From a virus: 22,556 nucleotides of DNA. The notes below the pieces were generated by a model. It saw nothing but the letters and a program-made list of their open reading frames with translations. It had not been told where the DNA came from and ran no database searches. The stretch covers positions 1-22,556 of the IMG/VR virus record IMGVR_UViG_3300044630_001770; one strand, 5' to 3'. Position numbers and translations under genes: made by a program. Below are positions 1-22,556 of the stretch, one piece after another (position 1 is the first letter of the stretch; the number at the start of each line of letters is the position of its first letter).

Positions 1-155
1 AGGACCTCATCAATCTGAGTTGGTTCAACTGTTGTCATCTTCAACCACAGTTCTTTGGTTCTGTTGAGGACCACAACAATGTCCCATTTGTTTTTGTTTG
101 GTGTGAGAACAACAGAGAGGTTCTTCAGCGAGAGTACATATTGTTTCTTTTTCAT
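1..155 (-). CDS. Small early protein A, unknown function (3' end cut by window edge)
   Basis: This open reading frame starts with ATG at 155 (beginning MKKKQYVLSLKNLSVV) and runs leftward off the window; about 52 residues are visible with no stop. The visible part alternates hydrophobic and basic residues (strand-like VVLTP, WDIVVVL), which suggests a small beta-rich cytosolic protein. I recognise no family. It follows the 173-529 gene on the same strand with a 17-base gap, and its own promoter (160-191) sits across that gap, with the -33 box inside the end of the upstream gene. The start is chosen because the promoter and the conserved CTTTGAAnT block sit directly against this ATG, as in the three neighbouring genes. 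The competing minus-strand frame at 25-315 lacks that signal. Confidence 0.7.
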   Translation of the reverse strand, partial: MKKKQYVLSLKNLSVVLTPNKNKWDIVVVLNRTKELWLKMTTVEPTQIDEV

Positions 156-194
156 AGTTCAAAGTTCGTTTATTAGTTTGACATTTCCAAATAC
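153..194 (-). repeat. Direct repeat copy 1: gene end + promoter + start codon cassette
   Basis: Reading leftward, the end of the 173-529 gene, its stop, the promoter and the next ATG form a block of about 40 bases that matches 809-850 at all but about five positions. Shared parts include GTCAAACTAAT and AACGAACTTTGAA. Confidence 0.75.
160..191 (-). promoter_or_regulatory. Near-leaderless promoter of early gene A
   Basis: On the minus strand the -33 box TTTG (188-191) is followed by exactly 20 bases and the -7 box GAACTTTG (160-167), then four bases and the ATG at 155. The known Bacteroidota primary-sigma consensus is TTTG, 19-21 bases, TAnnTTTG. The first base of the -7 box deviates (G for T). 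With usual spacing, transcription would start at or just before the ATG. Confidence 0.7.
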
Positions 195-529
195 TCATCC
201 AACAATTCTTGAAAAAATTCTTCGTTGTACTCACCCTTGTAGTAAGACAAAACCCAATCAACATCGTATTCCAAATCTGAAGCAGTGAACAGAAAGTCAT
301 CAGACATTGTTTCAATCACATCTTCAGAAGTGAAACTTTCCATGTCATGATTTTCATCAAACCATTTGGAGAATGTCTTTTCCATTTTGTCTTGAAGTGT
401 GTCACCATCAGAATAGTGTGCTGGATATGACTCGGTCCAATTGTTGAAGTATTCCATCACGACACTTCTGTCTTCCTTATTCAAATTTGACAACTCTTCA
501 AAATTCCGTTCAATCAATTTGTTTTCCAT
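173..529 (-). CDS. Small, strongly acidic early protein B, unknown function
   Basis: A 118-residue protein starting at the ATG directly downstream of a TTTG-N20-TATCTTTG promoter. It is very acidic: I count 32 Asp/Glu against 8 Lys/Arg, a net charge of about -24, with acidic residues spread over the whole length and many aromatic residues in between (YFNNW, WVLSYY, EYNEEFF). There is no signal peptide and no membrane segment, so it should be cytosolic. No family is recognised. Small acidic phage proteins of early type can act as DNA mimics or inhibitors of host enzymes, but nothing here proves that. Its last codons (ending MSN) contain the -33 box of the next gene's promoter and match the end of the 829-1047 gene, so the two gene ends share a repeated cassette. 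Confidence 0.85.
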   Translation of the reverse strand: MENKLIERNFEELSNLNKEDRSVVMEYFNNWTESYPAHYSDGDTLQDKMEKTFSKWFDENHDMESFTSEDVIETMSDDFLFTASDLEYDVDWVLSYYKGEYNEEFFQELLDEYLEMSN

Positions 530-533
530 AGTT

Positions 534-565
534 CAAAGATAGGGTTTATTATTCAGTTATACAAA
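534..565 (-). promoter_or_regulatory. Near-leaderless promoter of early gene B
   Basis: On the minus strand TTTG (562-565), 20 bases, then TATCTTTG (534-541), a full match to TAnnTTTG, followed by AACT and the ATG at 529. The -33 box lies inside the last codons of the upstream gene. Confidence 0.8.
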
Positions 566-811
566 AAAGATTTCAATAATTTCATTAAGGTTTTGTTTGT
601 ACCAAAGATTGAACTTTTCAGTTTCATTCAATCTTTTACCACTTGGTGTGATTACATGTGATTGTCCCAAGAGAATGAAATCTGTGTTGAACTTCTCAAT
701 CAATTTGAGTTGTTGTTCCTTTGTTGGTTCATCAAACATCAATGATTTGTATTTGTCCAAACACATACCAAAGTAAATGTTCTGTGTGTTATCTAATGTT
801 ATGTTTTCCAT
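557..811 (-). CDS. Small early protein C, unknown function
   Basis: An 84-residue protein starting MENITLDNTQ, with ATG at 811 directly after the GAACTTTG box of its own promoter. The sequence is mixed-charge with a central helix-like segment (EPTKEQQLKLIEKF), a predicted strand (TDFILLGQSHVI) and a hydrophobic C-terminus (IIEIFFV). No signal peptide or clear membrane span is present and no family is recognised. The gene lies between two same-strand genes with short gaps (17 bases before it, 27 after). The Phe/Val codons at its end also form the TTTG -33 box of the promoter for the 173-529 gene. It shares the MEN- start with that neighbour, which reflects a conserved sequence around the start rather than homology of the proteins. 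Confidence 0.8.
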   Translation of the reverse strand: MENITLDNTQNIYFGMCLDKYKSLMFDEPTKEQQLKLIEKFNTDFILLGQSHVITPSGKRLNETEKFNLWYKQNLNEIIEIFFV

Positions 812-850
812 ATTTCAAAGTTCGTTAATTAGTTTGACTTTACCAAATCT
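809..850 (-). repeat. Direct repeat copy 2: gene end + promoter + start codon cassette
   Basis: Second copy of the block described at 153-194, at the junction of the 829-1047 gene and the 557-811 gene. The match spans both coding and non-coding bases, so it is not explained by protein similarity alone. Confidence 0.75.
816..847 (-). promoter_or_regulatory. Near-leaderless promoter of early gene C
   Basis: On the minus strand TTTG (844-847), 20 bases, then GAACTTTG (816-823), then AAAT and the ATG at 811. Same layout as the promoter at 160-191, with which it shares almost every base. Confidence 0.7.
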
Positions 851-1047
851 TTTGGTTGATAATTTTCATCTTGGTCCTCAAAGTACATGTCTCTGAAAAG
901 ACACAACACGCTGTATTGAACTTGTTCATCATCCATGTCATCATCATCAAATCCATAAAGTGCTTCACATGCTTGAAACACTTCTTTTGACACCTCCTTT
1001 GAGAACCAAAGGTCACAGGCTTGTTTGTATCGTTTCTTCATTTTCAT
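829..1047 (-). CDS. Small early protein D, acidic C-terminal half, unknown function
   Basis: A 72-residue protein with a basic N-terminus (MKMKKRYKQ) and an acidic middle and C-terminal part containing the run FDDDDMDDEQ. It has three cysteines. It is the first gene of the leftward block, directly downstream of the best-matching promoter in the window (TTTG-N20-TACCTTTG). Two ATG codons are available (1047 and two codons further in); the first is preferred because it sits five bases after the promoter box, as in the other three genes. No family is recognised. Its C-terminus (LVKSN) and the bases after it are nearly identical to the end of the 173-529 gene, which looks like a shared recombination junction. 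Confidence 0.8.
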   Translation of the reverse strand: MKMKKRYKQACDLWFSKEVSKEVFQACEALYGFDDDDMDDEQVQYSVLCLFRDMYFEDQDENYQPKDLVKSN

Positions 1048-1051
1048 AATT

Positions 1052-1083
1052 CAAAGGTACAACCAATACTTTACACTGCCAAA
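1052..1083 (-). promoter_or_regulatory. Promoter of the first leftward early gene D
   Basis: On the minus strand TTTG (1080-1083), 20 bases, then TACCTTTG (1052-1059), a full match to the Bacteroidota consensus, followed by AATT and the ATG at 1047. Unlike the other three, it lies in non-coding DNA, so it is not constrained by an upstream gene. Confidence 0.85.
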
Positions 1084-1091
1084 TTTATTTT

Positions 1092-1104
1092 GATATTTAT
1101 ATTA
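1092..1104 (+). promoter_or_regulatory. Candidate late-type promoter for a small RNA
   Basis: GATATTTATATTAG-like sequence containing TATTTATA (1094-1101). It resembles the elements just upstream of the genes at 1232, 15718 and 20511. It has no TTTG at the -33 distance. It sits five to six bases before the structured stretch 1105-1194. Such AT-rich 8-mers also occur by chance, so this is a suggestion based on position. Confidence 0.35.
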
Positions 1105-1194
1105 GGGGTGAGACGTTCTTAATCTTACTGTCATTATTTTTTTTTTACCTCATCCCTTGTCCATATAACCCCTGCTGTTTCAGTGGGGGTTTTT
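1105..1194 (+). ncRNA. Possible ~90-base structured RNA between early and late regions
   Basis: The stretch begins with GGGGTGAG (1105-1112), which can pair along its full length (one G-U pair) with CTCATCCC (1149-1156), closing a loop of 36 bases that contains a run of ten T (1137-1146). It ends in a strong intrinsic terminator (1167-1194). The terminator points rightward, yet every gene to its left in the window is on the opposite strand, so it must end either an unseen rightward transcript or a short RNA that starts in this spacer. A promoter-like element lies immediately upstream (1092-1104). No known RNA family is recognised. Alternatives are an attenuator controlling the late operon or a terminator for transcripts entering from the left. 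Confidence 0.35.
1167..1194 (+). terminator. Intrinsic terminator, rightward, in the divergent spacer
   Basis: An 11-base-pair hairpin (arms 1167-1177 and 1181-1191, loop TTT, two G-U pairs) is followed by more T residues. The T-run is on the right side only, so it works for plus-strand transcription. Confidence 0.75.
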
Positions 1195-1218
1195 CATTTC
1201 CTTATTTTTCAACAATGA

Positions 1219-1231
1219 TATATTTATTAGT
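1219..1231 (+). promoter_or_regulatory. Candidate late promoter of the rightward operon
   Basis: TATATTTATTAGT runs directly into the ATG at 1232 and follows the terminator at 1167-1194. The same arrangement (terminator, then TATATTTATAAAGT, then ATG) recurs at 20459-20511. TATATTTA resembles the -7 box TAnnTTTG with the final G replaced by A. No -33 TTTG is present, so a different or modified RNA polymerase specificity is possible. Confidence 0.45.
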
Positions 1232-1486
1232 ATGAACGTGGATGAACTAATCAACAACTATTTCAAGTTATCTCCTGATGAGAAAGAGGACCTGTTGTGT
1301 TTATTAATTAAGGATTACTTTCATAGGAACTTGGCTCATGGTTTCTCTGTTGGGGAAATTATCAATGGTGTTGATGAGGTTATTGATTATTCAATATCCA
1401 AAGAAGATTATGAAATGAGTCAAGCGTTCAAAGATATAAAAGATGCGATGGCTATCGCAGTTAAAGAAATGAATTTAGATGTGTAA
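1232..1486 (+). CDS. Small hypothetical protein at the head of the late operon
   Basis: An 84-residue protein (start MNVDELINNYFKLSPDEKED) that looks mostly helical: LINNYFKLSPDEKEDLLCLLIKDYF, then a segment with DEVIDYSISKEDY, then a C-terminal amphipathic helix (KDIKDAMAIAVKEM). It is acidic and cytosolic, without signal peptide or membrane span. No family is recognised. It is the first gene after the candidate late promoter and overlaps the next gene by eight bases, so the two are probably translationally coupled and cotranscribed with the terminase genes. Confidence 0.75.
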   Translation: MNVDELINNYFKLSPDEKEDLLCLLIKDYFHRNLAHGFSVGEIINGVDEVIDYSISKEDYEMSQAFKDIKDAMAIAVKEMNLDV

Positions 1487-2215: not shown

Positions 2216-3366
2216 CAACAGTACAAACGACAGTAGTATTTGATGAATTGTTAAAGTCCGATGAGTTGGACAAAAGACTTGTTGTTGCTGTTGGTGGTTC
2301 TCGTTCAGGGAAAACATATAACATTCTGATATACTGGATTTATAGATTACTTCAAGAGGAGGGAAAGACATTATCAATTGTCAGAAAGACACTTCCTTCA
2401 TTGAAGAATTCCGTCTTAAAGGATTTGATTGAGGTCCTTGAATTGTTTGGGGTTTATGACCCAACATGTTTTCATAAGATGGATGGTTATTATGTTCTTG
2501 GAAAGAATATGATTAACTGGTTCTCAGTTGATGAACCACAGAAACTACGTGGTAGTAAAAGAGATTACCTGTATTGTAATGAAGCGAACGAATTAAAGAT
2601 TGAGGATTGGAATCAATTGATATTCCGTACAACAGATAAGGTTATTGTGGATTTGAACCCATCAGAGATTACATCATGGGTTTATGATTTGGAAGAACGT
2701 GATGACTGTTATTCATTCAAGACAACATGGAGGGATAATCCATTTGTTGATAAGAACATTATCAAGGAATTGGAATCATTAAAAGACAAAGATGAAAACC
2801 TTTATAGAATATATGCGATGGGTGAGAGGGGTTTACCACAACAGTTGGTATTCAATAAATTCAATATCATTGATGAGGTTCCACGTGGAATCAAGTTATT
2901 GGGTATGGGAATTGACTGGGGATTTAATGACCCCACAGCGCTTGTCAACGTTTATAAAAACGGTGATGAGTTATATCTAAAGGAGGTAATGTATGTGAAA
3001 GGGATGACCGTTCCTGACATTATCTACCAAATGGAAAAGATGAAGATTTCAAGGGTGGAGAACATATGGGCAGATTCCGCTTTACCTCAGAACATTGAGG
3101 AAGTCAAACGAAATAGATTCAACATTAAACCAGTATCCAAGAAAACAATTCTTCATGGTTTGGATTTAATTCGTAGACATCATGTGTATATTACAAAAGA
3201 TTCAAAGAACATCATTAACGAGTTTTCATCTTATCGTTACAGAGAAGATAAGGACGGGAACTTATTGGACGTACCAGAGGATGATAACAACCACGCCATT
3301 GATGCCATCCGTTATGTATTGGAATCAGAATTGAATAAGAGAACAGGAAAAATTACAATAGTATGA
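2212..3366 (+). CDS. terL: Terminase large subunit (ATPase-nuclease, PBSX-like)
   Basis: A 384-residue packaging motor, slightly short for the family (often 400-450). The N-terminal ATPase has Walker A GGSRSGKT (residues 28-35), the adenine/Q-region before it, and a Walker B-like YLYCNEANE with catalytic Glu124. The C-terminal RNase H-like nuclease has its three acidic residues: Asp235 (GIDWGFNDP), Asp288 (IWADSA) and Asp364 (NHAIDAIRY). These motifs match the Terminase_3/PBSX group. It translocates DNA into the prohead through the portal and cuts it at the end of packaging. The start is taken at the ATG in the ATGA overlap; no upstream in-frame start exists before a stop. It overlaps the next gene by four bases (ATGA at 3363). 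No portal gene follows, which is unusual. Confidence 0.93.
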   Translation: MTTVQTTVVFDELLKSDELDKRLVVAVGGSRSGKTYNILIYWIYRLLQEEGKTLSIVRKTLPSLKNSVLKDLIEVLELFGVYDPTCFHKMDGYYVLGKNMINWFSVDEPQKLRGSKRDYLYCNEANELKIEDWNQLIFRTTDKVIVDLNPSEITSWVYDLEERDDCYSFKTTWRDNPFVDKNIIKELESLKDKDENLYRIYAMGERGLPQQLVFNKFNIIDEVPRGIKLLGMGIDWGFNDPTALVNVYKNGDELYLKEVMYVKGMTVPDIIYQMEKMKISRVENIWADSALPQNIEEVKRNRFNIKPVSKKTILHGLDLIRRHHVYITKDSKNIINEFSSYRYREDKDGNLLDVPEDDNNHAIDAIRYVLESELNKRTGKITIV

Positions 3367-4171
3367 TAGAAGTAGTATTAGAAGATAAGGTGATTAAGGT
3401 TTCACCACATATGACAATTGGTCAGTATCAACAATTTGTTAGGAACAAAGAGATTTATAAAAACAATCCAACCAGATTATTATCGTTATATTTGGATTTA
3501 CCGATGCATCAATTAAGGGATTTACCATTATCTTCAGTTCAGATGGTTGAAAGTTATATCACCAATGAGATGTCCAAAGATTTTACAAAGGATGAAATGG
3601 TTGAGGTATTTGAATATGACGGAGTTGAATATGGAATTGAAAATGATTGGGGAAAATTATCTTGGGGAGCATGGGTTGATTTTCAAGTATATTCATCTGA
3701 GAACATTGAAGAAAATATTCATTTGATTATGGCAACTTTGTATAGACCAATTGTTTCAAGGAACAAAAAGGGAAAGTATAAGATTGAAAAATATAAGTCA
3801 GAGGATATTGAAGACAGGGCTGAAATCTTCAGGAACATTCCCGTTCTATATTGGTTTGGAGCATCAGGTTTTTTTTTGCTCATATCAACGCTGTACTTAG
3901 ACAATATAAAGAATTCTTTGATTATGACGAACAAAGCAAACCAGATGTTGATGAAGGGGTGGAAGGTTCTCCCAAAGTTTCTGCAAAAGATAATACCATT
4001 AGATTCTATTTTACTCTCACATACCAACTTGCAGGGGAAGATATAACAAAGTTGGAACAAATGGATGACATTCCTGTATATTTATGTTTAAATGTTGCTG
4101 CCATGTTGAAGGAAAGATATGACAAGGAACAAGAAGAAATAAGAAAAATGAATAGACAAATGAAGAAATAA
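3363..4171 (+). CDS. Tail assembly chaperone-like protein, needs -1 frameshift
   Basis: Two overlapping frames appear to encode one 269-residue protein: frame 0 from 3363 to about 3875, then the -1 frame from 3875 to the stop at 4171. The N-terminal part ([32 protein letters not shown]) resembles tail assembly chaperones, which keep the tape measure soluble during tail assembly and are classically made by -1 frameshifting. The switch falls in nine T residues (3869-3877). Beyond it, frame 0 runs another 56 codons to 4046, but that part looks like chance sequence (basic, hydrophobic), whereas the -1 frame is acidic, helical ([20 protein letters not shown]) and ends in a TAATG overlap with the next gene. 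A short frame-0 product of 227 residues is the alternative form. A homopolymer sequencing error would also explain the pattern. Confidence 0.65.
3869..3877 (+). promoter_or_regulatory. Candidate -1 ribosomal frameshift site (nine T)
   Basis: Frame-0 reading is GGT TTT TTT TTG. Slipping back one base gives TTT GCT and enters the downstream frame. T TTT TTT fits the X XXY YYZ slippery rule. I see no strong hairpin right after it. Confidence 0.55.
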
Positions 4172-5220
4172 TGGAACAATATGTATCATATCATAAAATA
4201 ATTCAAAATCTTGAATACTATCAACAATCTCAAGTTGGAGTTGGTTTGAATTCATTTGGACATGGAAATATCTACGAATTTTCAATGAACGCATCAGGAG
4301 GGACAGCAGTATACCCTTTGATGTTCGTAAGTCCTCAGAACGTGTCCTATGACATGAATACGACAACGTATACCCTTCAGATATTGTTCGCCGATAGAAT
4401 CAATGATGATATGTCAAACCAAGTTGATGTTTTGTCTGATATGTCAATTCAATCAAAGAGATTTATTTCATATATCCAACGTGGAATGAATCAAAACCCT
4501 CCGTTATTTGATATAATGGATAATACAATGCCAGTGACGGGAATTCCATTCCTTGAAAGATTTAATGATTATGTTGGAGGTATTTCAATGGATATTAGTA
4601 TTACAATATTTGAATACATTGATGCTTGTGATTACTATGAAGTAATAGAACCATCACCAACTCCAAGTATAACACCATCACCTACAACAACTCCAAGTGT
4701 TACCCCAACAAATACGAGTACCCCAACGGTTACACCTACAAACACAAGTACGCCTACAACAACACCTACAAGTACTCCTACAACAACTCCTACTACTACA
4801 CCAACACCGACTTATACACAAGCGATTTCACCAACACCTACAGAAACACCTACAGAAACACCAACTTCTACCCCAACGGTGACTCCGACTAACACTCCGA
4901 GTGTAACACCTACAAACACAAGTACTCCAACGGTGACTCCAACCAATACGGCAACTACAACGCCAACGGTTACACCTACAAACACAAGTACTCCAACGGT
5001 GACTCCAACCAATACGGCAACTACAACGCCAACGGTTACACCTACAAACACAAGTACTCCAACCAATACTCCGTCTGTGACTCCAACAGAGACACCGACA
5101 AACACACCAACACCGACATTAACACCAACTCCAACAGAACCTGTTGGATATAAATTACAAGCCGAAGATTCTGACTTTATATTGGCAGAAAACGGAGACA
5201 ACATAAATATAGAACATTAA
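4171..5220 (+). CDS. Tail-terminator/connector-like protein with long Pro/Thr repeat tail
   Basis: A 349-residue protein. Residues 1-157 form a folded domain ([45 protein letters not shown], then a C-terminal strand region ending IDACDY). I recognise it as similar to small tail-completion proteins of Bacteroidota phages, though without a firm family name. Residues about 160-322 are a Thr/Pro/Asn/Ser linker ([12 protein letters not shown] type), partly built from perfect 66-base DNA repeats (4915-5063). The last 27 residues return to normal composition ([18 protein letters not shown]), a short strand-rich cap. The chaperone-like gene ends on its start codon (TAATG). Such linkers are probably extended and exposed on the virion, and may carry glycans or project the tip. 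The tail-terminator role is inference; the repeat architecture is directly visible. Confidence 0.6.
4915..5063 (+). repeat. Tandem 66-base repeat encoding 22-residue Thr/Pro units
   Basis: Units start at 4915, 4981 and 5047; the first two are identical and the third is partial (about 17 bases). Each encodes [18 protein letters not shown] plus four residues. The perfect DNA identity indicates recent duplication. The repeat number is likely to vary between relatives. Confidence 0.9.
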
Positions 5221-7363: not shown

Positions 7364-7900
7364 ATGGAAGAAGCAATCTTGGCAGAAATAGCGGCAATGT
7401 TGAAAAAGTCTTTGGTGACTCAATTGAATACGCCAAGACCTGTAAAAACATATGCGGGTGAACAGAAGACAGTTGGAGGTAGACCAGTTCCAATGTCACC
7501 TCCAAGAGCAAGTGGAAATCTAATTAAGAATTTAAATGTGTTTTGGGTTGATTCAGACTTTGAATCCAAACCTGAATTGATTGTTGAATTACCTGATTAC
7601 TACTACTTTGTAGAACAAGGTAGAAGACCAGGAAGATTCCCACCTTTGAATATGATTAGAACTTGGGCAAGAGTTAAAAAAGAAGTACCACAGTTTAGAG
7701 ATAAAAAGGGTAGATTTATTAACAATGAAACAAGAGCATATCTAATTGGTCGTTCAATAGCCACATATGGTTTTGGAGCAACACCATTTATAGATAATGC
7801 CATAGCAGCCGTATTACCAAAGATAACAGATAAGTTGGGAGATGCCGCAGCAGCCTTTTTCCAAAACGCAATAAATGAAAATAGAATTATAGTAGGATGA
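7364..7900 (+). CDS. Neck/tail-completion protein of the HK97 gp10-like type
   Basis: A 178-residue protein. The pattern YYYFVEQGRRPGRFPPLNMIRTWARV (residues about 80-105) is the signature that makes gp10-like neck proteins recognisable: an FVExGR-type strand, a proline turn, then a helix ending in W-A. A typical C-terminal part follows (FGATPFIDNAIAAV). It opens with a helix (EEAILAEIAAMLKKSLV). Such proteins sit between the head-tail connector and the tail tube. It ends in a four-base ATGA overlap with the next gene (7897), so the two are coupled. The neighbouring 4171 gene could be the tail terminator of the same neck; the two adhesin-like genes lie between them, as if inserted. Confidence 0.65.
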   Translation: MEEAILAEIAAMLKKSLVTQLNTPRPVKTYAGEQKTVGGRPVPMSPPRASGNLIKNLNVFWVDSDFESKPELIVELPDYYYFVEQGRRPGRFPPLNMIRTWARVKKEVPQFRDKKGRFINNETRAYLIGRSIATYGFGATPFIDNAIAAVLPKITDKLGDAAAAFFQNAINENRIIVG

Positions 7901-15706: not shown

Positions 15707-15717
15707 TATTTATAGAA
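15707..15717 (+). promoter_or_regulatory. TATTTATA element upstream of the protease gene
   Basis: TATTTATA (15707-15714) ends three bases before the ATG at 15718 in the short gap after the tape measure gene. It resembles the elements at 1219 and 20497 but lacks a preceding terminator and the exact TATATTTA. It could start a separate transcript for capsid genes. Confidence 0.3.
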
Positions 15718-18090
15718 ATGTTAAGAGTAATAGATTTAGATATAGAAGGCACCTTGACGGGTGATACACGAGTTGCTGAAATTGCTTTGGTAGAAATGCC
15801 AGCAATTGAACAGGATTTCATATATTTTGAAAAACAAGAATTTGAGTCATATAATGATTATCCACAAGCGGCAACAACAAATGCTTGTAGAGCAGTCAAA
15901 TGGGCTGAAGAAAATGGTTGGGGAAGTTGTCTTCAAGCAGAGGGAAAAAATAGAGCGAATCAATTATGTAATCGTGAAAATATAACTGAAGAAACTATTG
16001 CTCGTATGTCAGCATTTAGAAGACATCAACAACACAAAGATGTTCCTTATGAAGAAGGTTGTGGTGGAATTGCTTGGGATGCATGGGGTGGTGATGCTGG
16101 TGTTGATTGGGCTGAAAGAAAGTTGGAACAGATTAGAAAGTCCAAAGAAGAAATGGCTGAAGTGGGACCAAGAGGTGGAATTAAAGAAAGCAAAAAAGCA
16201 CCAAAGTCAGACACACCAAACAAAGACCCAAAAGGGGAAGGTTCAGCAAAGGGTGATGCAAGTGGAAAAAGAGGTGCTGAAGTTACAGCAGCACAAGAAA
16301 AAACATTACAGGGAAAGGTTGATGATTTCAACGAAAAAGAATCAAATACCAAAAACGGAAATGCCACATTGGGAGCATTAAAATCTGTATTCCAAAGAGG
16401 ATTGGGAGCATATAACACATCTCACTCCCCTCAAGTAAAATCAGCAGAACAATGGGCATATGCTCGTGTAAATGCGTTTCTTTACTTGTTAAAAAATGGT
16501 AGACCTGAAAATCCAAAATACACAACAGATTACGATTTGTTACCTGAGAAACATCCAAAGAACGGTAAGAAAGAAGAGATGGATTATGAACCATCATTAC
16601 CTGGTTATGTTAATTATCCATCAGGTAATACTGAAAATGATATGTTAATCAAACCAATTCTATTTGTTGAAAGAGAGCCAGGTGAAGAGAAAAAAGCATA
16701 TATTTCTCGTTGTACCGCATATCTTATCAAGAACGAAGGTTATGAATCAGACCAAGCGTATGCAATTTGTGAAAGTGAATCTGAGGACTTTGCAAGGGGT
16801 GAGAGGGTTTCATTTGATTATGATGATACCTTGAATACTGCAAGAGGTCGTGGGTTTGCCTTGCAAGAAATAAACAGTGGTTCTGATGTGTATATCATCT
16901 CAGCAAGAGCCGACAAAAAAAGAATGTTAGGTTTGGCTGAAGAGTTGGGAATACCAACCAATAAAGTATTTGCAACAGGTTCAAATAGGAATAAAATCAG
17001 GATGGTTAAATCTTTGAGAATCAAAAGACATTATGATAACAATGAAGATGTCATTGAACAACTTGGAAATGTTGGACAACAATTTTGTTTCTCATGTGAA
17101 CCAGTTGAATACAATTATTCTGATGAAGAATATGAAGCAAAAGAATTGTTGGATTTCTTAAAGGAAACTGACTATGAAAAGTTTGAAGCCATTGTGGGAA
17201 CAATGAGAGGTAAAACTGAAGGTGATATTAAAAAATTAAATCATAAAAACCCAACAACATATTTCAAATACGAAAGAGTTTCATCTGGTTCTCCCGATAG
17301 AGATTTTTGTATGTCAATTGAAAATAGATATTTCCGTAGATTGGAAATAGATATGTTAAGGGATACGAATACAGAGTTTGGTCATGAAGGTCAAGCGTAT
17401 TCAAAATGGTTATACAAGGGTGGTCCAAATTGTGTTCATGCTTGGAGAAAGTATATTGCTCAAGGTGACGTAATTTCTGACCAAGGCATGGCTGAAGGAC
17501 TGGCAGGAACACCACCAAAAGAAATGCCGAACAGTGGATATTATTCTGAAGAAACCAAAAGAAAATCTGAGGTTGCTTACATTGTTTCTCAGAACATGTC
17601 CCAATTAAATTTTAAAGCAGATACGGAAAAGAGAATGGTTTATTCTCCATTGATGATACCAAACATGTTAATTCCAAGATTAGATGAGGTTTCCAATGAA
17701 AAATATTATGTTAAATTTACACCACAGGTGATAGAAAAAATTCAAAATCTTTACATGATTGAAAAGAGATTGGACCAAACAAACTATGAACATACAGAAC
17801 AAAAAATGTCTGATGTGGTTATGGTTGAATCTTGGTTGGTTTCAGGAAAATCTGACAAAGCATATCAACTTGGTTTCTCAAGGGAGAATATTCCTGATGG
17901 AACTTGGATGGGTGGATTTAAAGTTTTGGAAACAAAAGAAGGAGATAACATTTGGAATAATTTCATTAAGACAGGAAAGGTTAAAGGATTCTCAGTTGAG
18001 GGTAATTTTATCACCAATTTTTCCCGTCTAAAAAATGATGAATATTTATTACAAGAAATCATAAACATATTAAATAAAATAAACGATTAA
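15718..18090 (+). CDS. Capsid maturation polyprotein: XkdF-like protease with embedded HAD and other domains
   Basis: A 790-residue multidomain protein. Residues 1-38 (LDIEGTLTGDTRVAEIALVE, MPAIEQDFIYF) and 625-770 (YSPLMIPNMLIPR, YYVKFTPQVIEKI, VESWLVSG, KGFSVEGNF) correspond to the start and core of XkdF-type prohead proteases; His692 and Ser759 are candidate catalytic residues. In between lie four apparent insertions. At 48-140 is a conserved module with RANQL, RRHQQH and AWDAWGGDAGVDWAERK. At about 192-280 is another (SVFQRGLGAYNTSHSP, WAYARVNAFLYLL, DLLPEKHP), preceded by a Gly/Lys/Ser linker. At 360-450 is a HAD phosphatase-like domain with intact motifs DYDDT (367-371), SAR (395), Lys426 and HYDNNED. 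At 505-580 is a MuF-like Cys motif (SPDRDFC, GGPNCVHAWR). It likely cleaves scaffold and capsid protein before packaging. The roles of the inserts are inferred only as virion-associated. Confidence 0.75.
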   Translation: MLRVIDLDIEGTLTGDTRVAEIALVEMPAIEQDFIYFEKQEFESYNDYPQAATTNACRAVKWAEENGWGSCLQAEGKNRANQLCNRENITEETIARMSAFRRHQQHKDVPYEEGCGGIAWDAWGGDAGVDWAERKLEQIRKSKEEMAEVGPRGGIKESKKAPKSDTPNKDPKGEGSAKGDASGKRGAEVTAAQEKTLQGKVDDFNEKESNTKNGNATLGALKSVFQRGLGAYNTSHSPQVKSAEQWAYARVNAFLYLLKNGRPENPKYTTDYDLLPEKHPKNGKKEEMDYEPSLPGYVNYPSGNTENDMLIKPILFVEREPGEEKKAYISRCTAYLIKNEGYESDQAYAICESESEDFARGERVSFDYDDTLNTARGRGFALQEINSGSDVYIISARADKKRMLGLAEELGIPTNKVFATGSNRNKIRMVKSLRIKRHYDNNEDVIEQLGNVGQQFCFSCEPVEYNYSDEEYEAKELLDFLKETDYEKFEAIVGTMRGKTEGDIKKLNHKNPTTYFKYERVSSGSPDRDFCMSIENRYFRRLEIDMLRDTNTEFGHEGQAYSKWLYKGGPNCVHAWRKYIAQGDVISDQGMAEGLAGTPPKEMPNSGYYSEETKRKSEVAYIVSQNMSQLNFKADTEKRMVYSPLMIPNMLIPRLDEVSNEKYYVKFTPQVIEKIQNLYMIEKRLDQTNYEHTEQKMSDVVMVESWLVSGKSDKAYQLGFSRENIPDGTWMGGFKVLETKEGDNIWNNFIKTGKVKGFSVEGNFITNFSRLKNDEYLLQEIINILNKIND

Positions 18091-20496: not shown

Positions 20497-20510
20497 TATA
20501 TTTATAAAGT
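20497..20510 (+). promoter_or_regulatory. Candidate promoter of the host-recognition module
   Basis: TATATTTATAAAGT directly precedes the ATG at 20511 and lies 13 bases after a terminator, so a new transcript must start here or the terminator must be passed. Nearly identical to the element at 1219-1231. No TTTG occurs at the -33 distance. Confidence 0.5.
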
Positions 20511-21581
20511 ATGAAGTGGAAACCTTATTCAGCCCCAAGAAAACAACCGAACATTAATGACATGATTTACCCAAAGGGTGAAAAAAGACCTGGCAATGTT
20601 TGGGTGGGCGGAATATTAATGAATGTGTATAAAGCACCACCATCAACAACACTTCCTTTATGGGTTGCGGTTGGTGGTTTAACAGCGACTACTATTGGAT
20701 ATTCTGTTGATGGTATGACTTGGTCTGCTTCTACAAATGGAAAAATTGTATTTCCTGCTCCAGTATTATCAGTATCGTCAAGTAATAGCCTTTGGGTTGT
20801 TGGCGGTCAATCACCTAATACTATTGGATATTCTAATGATGGTATAACTTGGTCTGCTTCTACAAATGGTAATAGTATTTTATCTTCACTTTGTTTTGAT
20901 GTTGGTTGGAATGGTTCTATATGGGTTGCTGGGGGACAAGGAACAAATACTATCGCCTATTCCAACGATGGTATTACTTGGAACGCATCTACTAATGGAA
21001 ATAGTGTTATTTCTGGAACAACCAGAGGAATTGGCACAGATGGTTCTATATGGGTTGCTGGTGGGTCAGGAATAAATACATTAGCATATTCTAATGATGG
21101 TATTACTTGGTCTGGTTCTACTAATGGAAATAGTATTTTAACTAGTGAAGGTAGGTGTATTGCTTGGAATGGTTCTATATGGGTTGCTGGCGGTTTTTCA
21201 ACAAATCCATTAGCATATTCTAATGATGGTATTACTTGGTCTGCTTCTACTAATGGAAATAGTATTATGGCTGCTACTAATTCTGTGGCTTGGAATGGTT
21301 CTATATGGGTTGCCGCAGGACAAGGAGCAAATAGATTAGCATATTCTAATGATGGTTTAACTTGGTCTGGTTCTACTAATGGAAATACTTTTTTTAGTGG
21401 TGGACTTTCTGTTGGTTGGAATGGTTCTATGTGGGTTGCTGGTGGGATAGGAGCAAATAGATTAGCATATTCTATTGATGGTATTACTTGGTCTGCTTCT
21501 ACTAATGGAAATATTTTATTCAATTCTGTTGTTTATGATGTAGCATCAAAACCAGCCCCTAATTTGTATCCCCCAAGATAA
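20511..21581 (+). CDS. Seven-repeat propeller-like receptor-binding candidate
   Basis: A 356-residue protein. A 49-residue basic N-terminus (MKWKPYSAPRKQPNINDM), possibly the virion anchor, is followed by seven repeats of 42-44 residues, each reading roughly WNGSIWVAGGxGxNxxAYSNDGITW-like with SxSTNGN after it. Each repeat contains an Asp-box-like SNDGITW turn, so a seven-bladed beta-propeller is expected. The DNA repeats are also strongly conserved (20658-21554). It is the first gene after the terminator at 20484 and precedes a fibre gene, suggesting an adsorption role such as binding a surface sugar. It could also be a phage-borne enzyme fold, but no catalytic residues are visible. The last ~10 residues (KPAPNLYPPR) leave the repeat pattern. 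Confidence 0.65.
   Translation: MKWKPYSAPRKQPNINDMIYPKGEKRPGNVWVGGILMNVYKAPPSTTLPLWVAVGGLTATTIGYSVDGMTWSASTNGKIVFPAPVLSVSSSNSLWVVGGQSPNTIGYSNDGITWSASTNGNSILSSLCFDVGWNGSIWVAGGQGTNTIAYSNDGITWNASTNGNSVISGTTRGIGTDGSIWVAGGSGINTLAYSNDGITWSGSTNGNSILTSEGRCIAWNGSIWVAGGFSTNPLAYSNDGITWSASTNGNSIMAATNSVAWNGSIWVAAGQGANRLAYSNDGLTWSGSTNGNTFFSGGLSVGWNGSMWVAGGIGANRLAYSIDGITWSASTNGNILFNSVVYDVASKPAPNLYPPR
20658..21554 (+). repeat. Seven tandem repeats of 126-132 bases
   Basis: Repeat starts: 20658, 20790, 20919, 21048, 21177, 21303, 21429. Stretches such as GGTTCTATATGGGTTGCTGG and AATGATGGTATTACTTGG recur almost unchanged in repeats 3-7; the first two are more diverged. High DNA identity points to recent expansion or gene conversion. 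Confidence 0.9.
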
Positions 21582-21584
21582 TAT

Positions 21585-21788
21585 ATGTATAGAATTGATG
21601 ATATAGCCTTTGATGAATACTCAGTTGAAACTGTTGAAATGAATTTGGAAAGTTGTGATGTTCATTTAAGAGTATTGTTTAGTAAAGAAGATAAAAGGAT
21701 TCAAAGAAGAAAGACATACAAGTTTGAAACAGATTGTAATGTTGATGTAAATAAATTAATTGAAGAGTTAAAAAACATAATTAAATAA
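21585..21788 (+). CDS. Small hypothetical protein between two adhesin genes
   Basis: A 67-residue protein (MYRIDDIAFDEYSVETVEM), predicted as strand-rich in the first two thirds with a basic patch (KEDKRIQRRKTYKF) and ending in a helix (VNKLIEELKNIIK). It contains two cysteines. No signal peptide or membrane span is present. No family is recognised. It starts three bases after the propeller gene's stop and overlaps the following fibre gene by one base (TAATG), so it is translated with them and may be a small chaperone or adaptor of the host-binding module; that is an inference from position only. The minus-strand frame over the same bases is a shadow of the Pro/Thr repeats. Confidence 0.65.
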   Translation: MYRIDDIAFDEYSVETVEMNLESCDVHLRVLFSKEDKRIQRRKTYKFETDCNVDVNKLIEELKNIIK

Positions 21789-22556
21789 TGCCTCAGGTTT
21801 TTTATAGAAAACAATTTAGTGATTATCTTGGTGAACAAAGAGCCATAGATGATATTGTTCAATCTTTTCAACCTGCTGTTGGACCTTCTCCAACGCCTAC
21901 TCCATCTATTACCCCTTCTGTTACGCCTACACTTACAAGGACACCTACACAGACCCCAACAAACACACAAACGCCTACTAACACACAAACGCCAAGTGTA
22001 ACGCCTACAAATACCCAAACACCTACAAATACCCAAACACCTACAAATACACCTACAAACACTCAGACTCCTACAAACACTCAGACTCCTACAAATACTC
22101 AAACTCCTACAAATACTCAAACTCCTACAAATACTCAGACTGCCACACAAACACCAACAAACACAGCAACTCCTACTCCAACACCTACCTTTGTATTTGA
22201 TAGTGATGCTTTGCTGTATTTTAGTAGAGTAAATGCTGCGGGTGGAACATTAAGTAATACAGAAAAAACTGCCGTAAATACTTTAACATTAAGTATGAAG
22301 GCATATGGTATTTGGAATAGTATGGTTGCGATTTATCCTATGGTAGGTGCGAGTGCCGCAGCATGTGCTCAAAATCTTAAATCACCAAGTTATACAGGAA
22401 CATTTAGTGCTGGTTGGACTTTCTCACCTACGGGTGTATTACCAAACGGAACAAGTGCTTATATGGATACATCATTAAATGCGGCTGGTAATTTGACCAA
22501 TAATAATTGGCATTTATCTTATTACTCAAGAACAAATAATTCAGTAAGTAATGATT
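21788..22556 (+). CDS. Tail fibre with Pro/Thr repeat stalk (3' end cut by window edge)
   Basis: An open frame of 256 codons without a stop, starting at the TAATG overlap (MPQVFYRKQFSDYLGEQRAIDD). Residues 1-32 form a short helical anchor similar to the N-termini of other Bacteroidota phage tail proteins. Residues about 33-134 are a Thr/Pro/Asn/Gln stalk (TPTNTQTPTNTQTP). From about 135 comes a folded domain (FDSDALLYFSRVNAAGGTLSN, AVNTLTLSMKAYGIWNSMV, IYPMVGASAAACAQNLKSPS, FSAGWTFSPTGVLPNG) resembling a C-terminal module common in phage fibres, in which D-x-D-A, a helix pair and IYP-x-V-G are conserved. The protein probably projects a binding domain from the tail. The rest lies beyond 22556. 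This frame has no stop in the window. Confidence 0.75.
   Translation, partial: MPQVFYRKQFSDYLGEQRAIDDIVQSFQPAVGPSPTPTPSITPSVTPTLTRTPTQTPTNTQTPTNTQTPSVTPTNTQTPTNTQTPTNTPTNTQTPTNTQTPTNTQTPTNTQTPTNTQTATQTPTNTATPTPTPTFVFDSDALLYFSRVNAAGGTLSNTEKTAVNTLTLSMKAYGIWNSMVAIYPMVGASAAACAQNLKSPSYTGTFSAGWTFSPTGVLPNGTSAYMDTSLNAAGNLTNNNWHLSYYSRTNNSVSND
22052..22141 (+). repeat. Five tandem 18-base repeats encoding six-residue Pro-Thr units
   Basis: Units begin at 22052, 22070, 22088, 22106 and 22124 and read CCTACAAAYACTCARACT, encoding PTNTQT. Irregular related units extend to about 21945 on the left. Confidence 0.85.

Follow-up and report, generated by a model that had tools for sequence, protein, structure and literature searches.

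We report that every one of the four leftward genes in a 22,556-nucleotide stretch of viral DNA (IMG/VR record IMGVR_UViG_3300044630_001770, positions 1 to 22,556; hereafter the window), with ATGs at 1047, 811, 529 and 155 on the minus strand, is preceded by an exact match to TTTG-N20-nAnCTTTG-N4-ATG. This signal of about 50 bases, in which a putative promoter is combined with the start codon, is placed immediately 5' of each gene. We propose, with a probability of roughly 0.8, that these elements are sigma-A-type promoters which initiate transcription on the ATG, overlap the end of the upstream gene, and double as boundaries for gene exchange.

The first element, of a type that we term class B, spans 1045..1083 (-), with the -33 TTTG at 1080-1083, the -7 box TACCTTTG at 1052-1059 and, after four bases, the ATG at 1045-1047. 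It opens the first gene adjoining the divergent region (829..1047, minus strand, 72 aa), and a counterpart occupies the same position, with different genes behind it, in the related loci L005, L086, L011, L012 and L087. The second, of class A, lies at 809..847 (-) (TTTG 844-847, GAACTTTG 816-823, N4, ATG 809-811), overlaps the C-terminal codons of the 72-aa gene and precedes an ORF of 84 aa at 557..811 (-). The third, of class C, is found at 527..565 (-) (TTTG 562-565, TATCTTTG 534-541, N4, ATG 527-529) before an ORF of 118 aa at 173..529 (-), whose C-terminal codons in turn overlap the fourth element, again of class A, at 153..191 (-) (TTTG 188-191, GAACTTTG 160-167, N4, ATG 153-155). The gene behind this last element, at 3..155 (-), is cut by the window end and codes for at least 51 aa. 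The four bases between the -7 box and the ATG read AATT, AAAT, AACT and AACT in elements 1 to 4, and the first base of the -7 box is G instead of the consensus T in two of the four, the A, the TTTG and the spacing being intact. These exact matches corroborate the identical geometry that the earlier note had described for the four genes; its claim that three of the -33 boxes are embedded in the coding end of the upstream gene is likewise correct, the upstream stops lying 20, 30 and 20 nt before the respective ATGs. The four leftward proteins have no match in PHROGs or Pfam. None of the genuine rightward gene starts in the window carries the element; one formal rightward match, at 7652, was discarded, its ATG, 3 nt from the box, being internal to the ORF 7364-7900.

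The combination of TTTG and TAnnTTTG separated by 19-21 nt, which defines the Bacteroidota sigma-A (sigma-ABfr) promoter, is present in all four elements with a spacer of N20. A generic sigma-70 scan is uninformative for Bacteroidota. In Flavobacterium johnsoniae, the -7 box comprises T-12, A-11, T-8, T-7, T-6 and G-5, and +1 follows after 4 or 5 nt (PMC6847099), and the sigma-A box of F. psychrophilum maps to -12 to -5 (PMC9723704). Measured against the A of the ATG, the boxes of the phage occupy exactly -12 to -5, which places +1 on that A by a numbering that is borrowed from Flavobacterium rather than from an identified host of the phage. Judged by position only, the mRNAs are predicted to be leaderless and to start with AUG, so that the near-leaderless expression envisaged in the earlier note stands as a prediction, with +1 on the A of the ATG. 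On leaderless mRNAs the ribosomes of E. coli require a 5'-terminal AUG and, if the same is true here, this would explain the exact 4-nt distance. We infer promoter activity, the start on the ATG, early timing and the host phylum; that the elements are sigma-A-type promoters is very probable, and that transcription starts on the ATG, or within 1 nt of it, is likely. We posit that host RNA polymerase, with a primary (housekeeping) sigma factor of the kind known from Bacteroidota (-33 TTTG, -7 TAnnTTTG), would initiate at each element, and that each small gene would be expressed from its own leaderless mRNA, whose first base would be the A of the ATG. Since no leftward terminator-like site was found between the genes (none in window 1-1260), the transcripts may nest, with the downstream genes also being made by read-through from the upstream promoters.

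To place the arrangement among related viruses, we used a terminase search, which recovered 80 viral loci, including eight full-length matches with terminase identity of at least 96%; the contigs of these relatives are metagenomic and partial. When TTTG-Nx-nAnnTTTG-Ny-ATG was counted over the 80 loci, 30 matches fell in the cell with a spacer of 20 and a distance of 4, and between 0 and 9 in every other cell. Matches in the close clade are mainly found on the non-terminase strand, within a module of small genes that differs in content from contig to contig: the element precedes 29 of 45 opposite-strand genes as against 2 of 94 terminase-strand genes (Fisher p = 3e-16, a descriptive value, as the counts come from a simple, crude ORF caller and include related genomes and shadow ORFs). 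The third of the opposite-strand ORFs that lack the element consists partly of short-spaced genes expected to be co-transcribed and partly of spurious ORFs. The distance from box to ATG in this clade is 4 nt in 29 genes and 5 nt in one, with none at 0-3 or 6-9 nt; distances beyond 9 nt are single cases, apart from a small cluster at 32 nt that fits the -33 box itself being scored as the box. Though not demanded by this search, a TTTG at 19-21 nt is present in 25 of the 29 genes with a 4-nt box. In more distant relatives (terminase identity 49-78%) the feature is sparser, with 4 nt still the commonest short distance, and the cultured Bacteroidota phages SJC10, Fpv6, snusmum9-1, 11b, FCL-2, B124-14 and phi10:1 (n=7) lack the pattern, with 0-2 such genes each. 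Profile searches returned few family matches for the module proteins of the relatives. One of these, a 373-aa protein encoded at 3146-4267 (+) of locus L107 behind a start-proximal box at 4 nt, matches DruA of the Druantia system (PF14236, E 4.5e-12), which indicates that the module can carry a larger gene too.

Alignment on the ATG separates at least three classes of element, which differ in their spacers. In class A the layout is TTTG, 5 nt, GTcAAA, n, TAA, ... ACTTTG, with the upstream stop mostly at -20; class C reads ...AAACCCCTAtCTTTG, lacks the GTCAAA block and has the upstream stop at -30, -39 or -40; class B belongs to the first gene beside the divergent region. Copies of class A, and likewise those of class C, share an identity of about 0.7-0.86 between -40 and +9, as against about 0.3-0.4 on either side of this stretch, while the copies of class B also have the upstream intergenic region in common, their identity falling at +10. 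As in a boundary sequence, identity in classes A and C is thereby confined to the junction, and the downstream genes are unrelated. Behind the first 33 elements stand 27 proteins that BLAST can tell apart, and an extended set, enlarged with contigs from scans of the collection for elements, comprises 59 elements with 46 distinct 40-mers, spread over 14 loci and placed before 35 such protein groups; it is the distinct numbers that carry meaning, as L101 nearly repeats part of L086 and L012 and L085 are parts of one contig, and very short proteins may have been split by BLAST in the grouping. Promoter identity is 0.589 for pairs of homologous proteins and 0.585 for unrelated pairs, and is therefore independent of protein homology; in two pairs, identical 40-mers precede unrelated proteins. 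A search for patterns mixing the element classes gave no match.

Conversely, individual protein families change their promoter class. The family of the window gene starting at 155 has a class A promoter in the window and in L107, and a class C promoter in L086/L101; a 147-aa family is under class A in L011 and class B in L012; and the 84-aa family has an A-type promoter in the window and in L086/L101, and class B in L011. Genes and promoters thus reassort, and the gene-by-gene modularity and swapping suggested by the earlier note are seen in the relatives, where the same element precedes different genes; the enrichment of the motif before other genes of the same module, which had been set as a test, was found there as well. 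The overlap itself bears signs of constraint: the 13 upstream genes ending at -20 share a C-terminus that is mostly LxxSN, and in these tails the TTG is invariant (11/11 with Leu at that position), as is the TCA (13/13), even though the proteins otherwise differ. Such invariant synonymous codons argue for constraint at the level of DNA. Class B retains TTTGG.AGTGTAAAG where there is no upstream coding sequence on that strand, and the LxxSN tail of the proteins seems to be a side effect of the promoter. The element is probably a boundary for gene exchange, at which a unit from -40 to about +9, the promoter overlapping the 3' end of the preceding gene, would be the point of replacement with a working promoter being kept. 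Recombination at the shared sequence would be the mechanism of swapping, a proposal consistent with families occurring under different classes. More tentatively, and at somewhat less than even odds, the accessory genes could be split-promoter cassettes, in which one gene contributes the -33 half through its 3' end, where it often encodes a C-terminal LxxSN tail, and the next contributes the -7 half fused to the ATG through its 5' end, such that joining them recreates a correctly spaced leaderless promoter; this would amount to expression that is largely leaderless, with one promoter per gene, in a phylum where most mRNAs have leaders.

Several other readings of these repeats have to be weighed. 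That they are chance matches in AT-rich DNA is hardly credible: when the window was shuffled 300 times with its dinucleotides preserved, 285 shuffles had no site with the full pattern, 15 had one and none had more; when all spacings of 15-25 and distances of 0-12 were scanned in 100 shuffles, no single geometry exceeded 2 sites; a control pattern read backwards had no match in the window; and the relatives repeat the pattern. The looser TTTG-N20-nAnnTTTG, which omits the ATG, is only mildly enriched (4 observed against 1.56 expected, with 4 reached in 7 of 100 shuffles), which would favor chance if taken in isolation, and what makes the pattern significant is accordingly its constant spacing from the start codon. 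A weightier challenge is that the stretch of CTTTG followed by A-rich sequence is a Kozak-like signal for translation initiation on a polycistronic leftward mRNA, with no promoter being involved. F. johnsoniae does employ such signals (PMC6847099), and A is frequent at -3 and -4 in the elements; nevertheless, the TTTG 20 nt upstream and the conserved block between the boxes are left unexplained, and the rightward genes of the same phages start without CTTTG, rendering this reading quite improbable.

Closer to our proposal is the alternative that the elements are promoters whose transcripts start a few bases off the ATG with very short leaders, the fixed distance merely reflecting descent from a few ancestral elements. 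The copies within a class are clearly related, and in F. johnsoniae the distance from start to box is either 4 or 5 nt, a variation of 1 nt. Against this, classes A, B and C differ in their spacers and yet keep N20 and N4, and 4 nt also predominates in distant relatives, whose spacers are unrelated; we consider this alternative unlikely. We give similarly low credence to the repeats being primarily sites for a phage regulator, either a repressor or an activator, that overlap promoters, with the GTcAAA between the boxes as its operator. The near-invariance of -24 (A in 25/25 elements) and -26 (T in 23/25) is in keeping with an operator, whereas the block is absent from class C and family searches recognized no regulator among the proteins searched. 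Moreover, this reading is compatible with the elements being promoters and is no true alternative to it. The translation-signal and regulator-site explanations cover only part of the pattern, and sigma-A-type promoters starting on the ATG remain our preferred reading.

If so, the phage would depart from the Bacteroidota studied to date, in which leaderless mRNAs are a minority; this counts against the proposal, as do the G at the start of two of the four -7 boxes and the opposite-strand ORFs that lack the element. Leaderless transcripts make up 5.5% in F. psychrophilum (PMC9723704), 87% of leaders in F. johnsoniae exceed 10 nt (PMC6847099), about 3.7% of the UTRs of B. thetaiotaomicron are below 10 nt (PMC7366714), and an older computational survey, limited to Pribnow-like boxes, found leaderless genes in one of 37 Bacteroidetes/Chlorobi genomes (PMC3160421). 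We surveyed 99 genomes from the phylum of an uncultured Bacteroidetes MAG (G016), totaling about 340 Mb as a rough sum of rounded sizes. By hand count, the strict motif occurs at 4 nt in 150 sites, with at most 8 per genome or about 0.44 per Mb, and at 10 nt in 121 sites, and there is accordingly no strong phylum-wide leaderless signature. In the phage clade it occurs 25 times in 115.8 kb, or 216 per Mb, a roughly 490-fold higher density which suggests that the phage does not merely mirror a phylum-wide habit, the comparison set being the phylum and not an identified host. A scan of genome contigs by terminase alignment yielded three distant loci only (37-39% identity) and identified no host.

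Other features of the window deserve mention. TATTTA precedes the ATG by 5 nt in nine genes and by 6 nt in three, and is almost absent elsewhere within 40 nt; this count covers 172 ORFs of nine close-clade loci, overlapping contigs included, and several of the 12 instances are orthologues. Within the window, TATTTA-N5-6-ATG lies at 1219-1234 (+) before the first rightward gene (1232), at 15707-15720 (+) before a prohead protease-like gene (15718, PF14550) and at 20497-20513 (+) before the gene at 20511, and no -33 TTTG was seen at these sites. Such motifs before late-operon genes may be a start-proximal class of late promoter, which we offer as a lead only; a two-mismatch search of the window for TATATTTAT-N5-ATG was not above chance, the exact-core, start-centered count being the informative one. 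The divergent region at 1104-1195 (+) contains a helix formed by GGGGTGAG...CTCATCCC followed by a terminator-like hairpin at 1167-1191 (fold -27.5 kcal/mol, z -3.7 versus shuffles). Both hairpins are kept in six relatives, with two-sided changes in two pairs only and an unfavorable covariation term; the region is possibly a small RNA or a leader, and an Rfam search of the window at gathering thresholds gave no match. Two rightward proteins, encoded at 4171-5220 and 21788-22556 (+), have long Thr-Pro-rich repeats, which may be extended linkers if these are virion or tail proteins.

With respect to the old question of phage mosaicism, the elements offer a concrete joint at which single genes could be swapped and yet stay expressed. 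They also constitute a natural set of predicted leaderless promoters with which to ask how the ribosomes of Bacteroidota, a group without Shine-Dalgarno sequences in its mRNAs, initiate on an AUG at the very 5' end. The pattern TTTG-N19/20-[TG]AnnTTTG-N4-ATG can further serve as a search key for locating where the tiny genes of such phages truly start.

The arrangement is unreported for Bacteroidota phages in the open literature searched, a weak indication given the incomplete coverage. Known systems resemble parts of it. The Start-Associated Sequences (SAS) of Cluster K mycobacteriophages are repeats found only at non-structural genes of various families, typically 3-7 bp from their starts (PMC3203893); together with the ESAS they have one orientation and sometimes include the upstream stop codon (PMC3203893), and a translational role has been proposed for their 13-bp sequence with its Shine-Dalgarno core (PMC3203893). 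Like them, the phage element is confined to the non-structural strand, lies near starts and precedes unrelated families; unlike them, it has the form of a complete sigma-A-type promoter without a Shine-Dalgarno sequence, at a nearly invariant distance from box to ATG, and the SAS consensus GGGATAGGAGCCC with its Shine-Dalgarno core is absent from the elements. It works like a SAS, yet is none. Cluster O mycobacteriophages have three predicted SigA promoters heading operons, whose predicted +1 is the start codon's first base (PMC4351075). The host-type promoter with a +1 predicted on the start codon is common to both; however, leaderless mRNAs are common in the phylum of the Cluster O hosts and a minority in that of our phage, where the element stands at nearly every small gene. 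With the sigma-A promoters of Bacteroidota the elements share both boxes, the 19-21 nt spacing and the box at -12 to -5; these host promoters mostly give leaders, with medians of 24 and 32 nt (PMC7366714, PMC9723704), and the -33 box, weak in F. johnsoniae (PMC6847099), is near-universal in the phage elements. Finally, for lambdoid phages an older proposal holds that short shared boundary (linker) sequences at gene junctions allow exchange (cited in PMC3029335). The present elements resemble such boundaries, and the morons, in having a shared junction sequence and extra genes with their own promoter; they differ in that the own terminator after each gene that characterizes a moron is absent, and in that the boundary is itself the putative promoter and overlaps the stop codon of the upstream gene.
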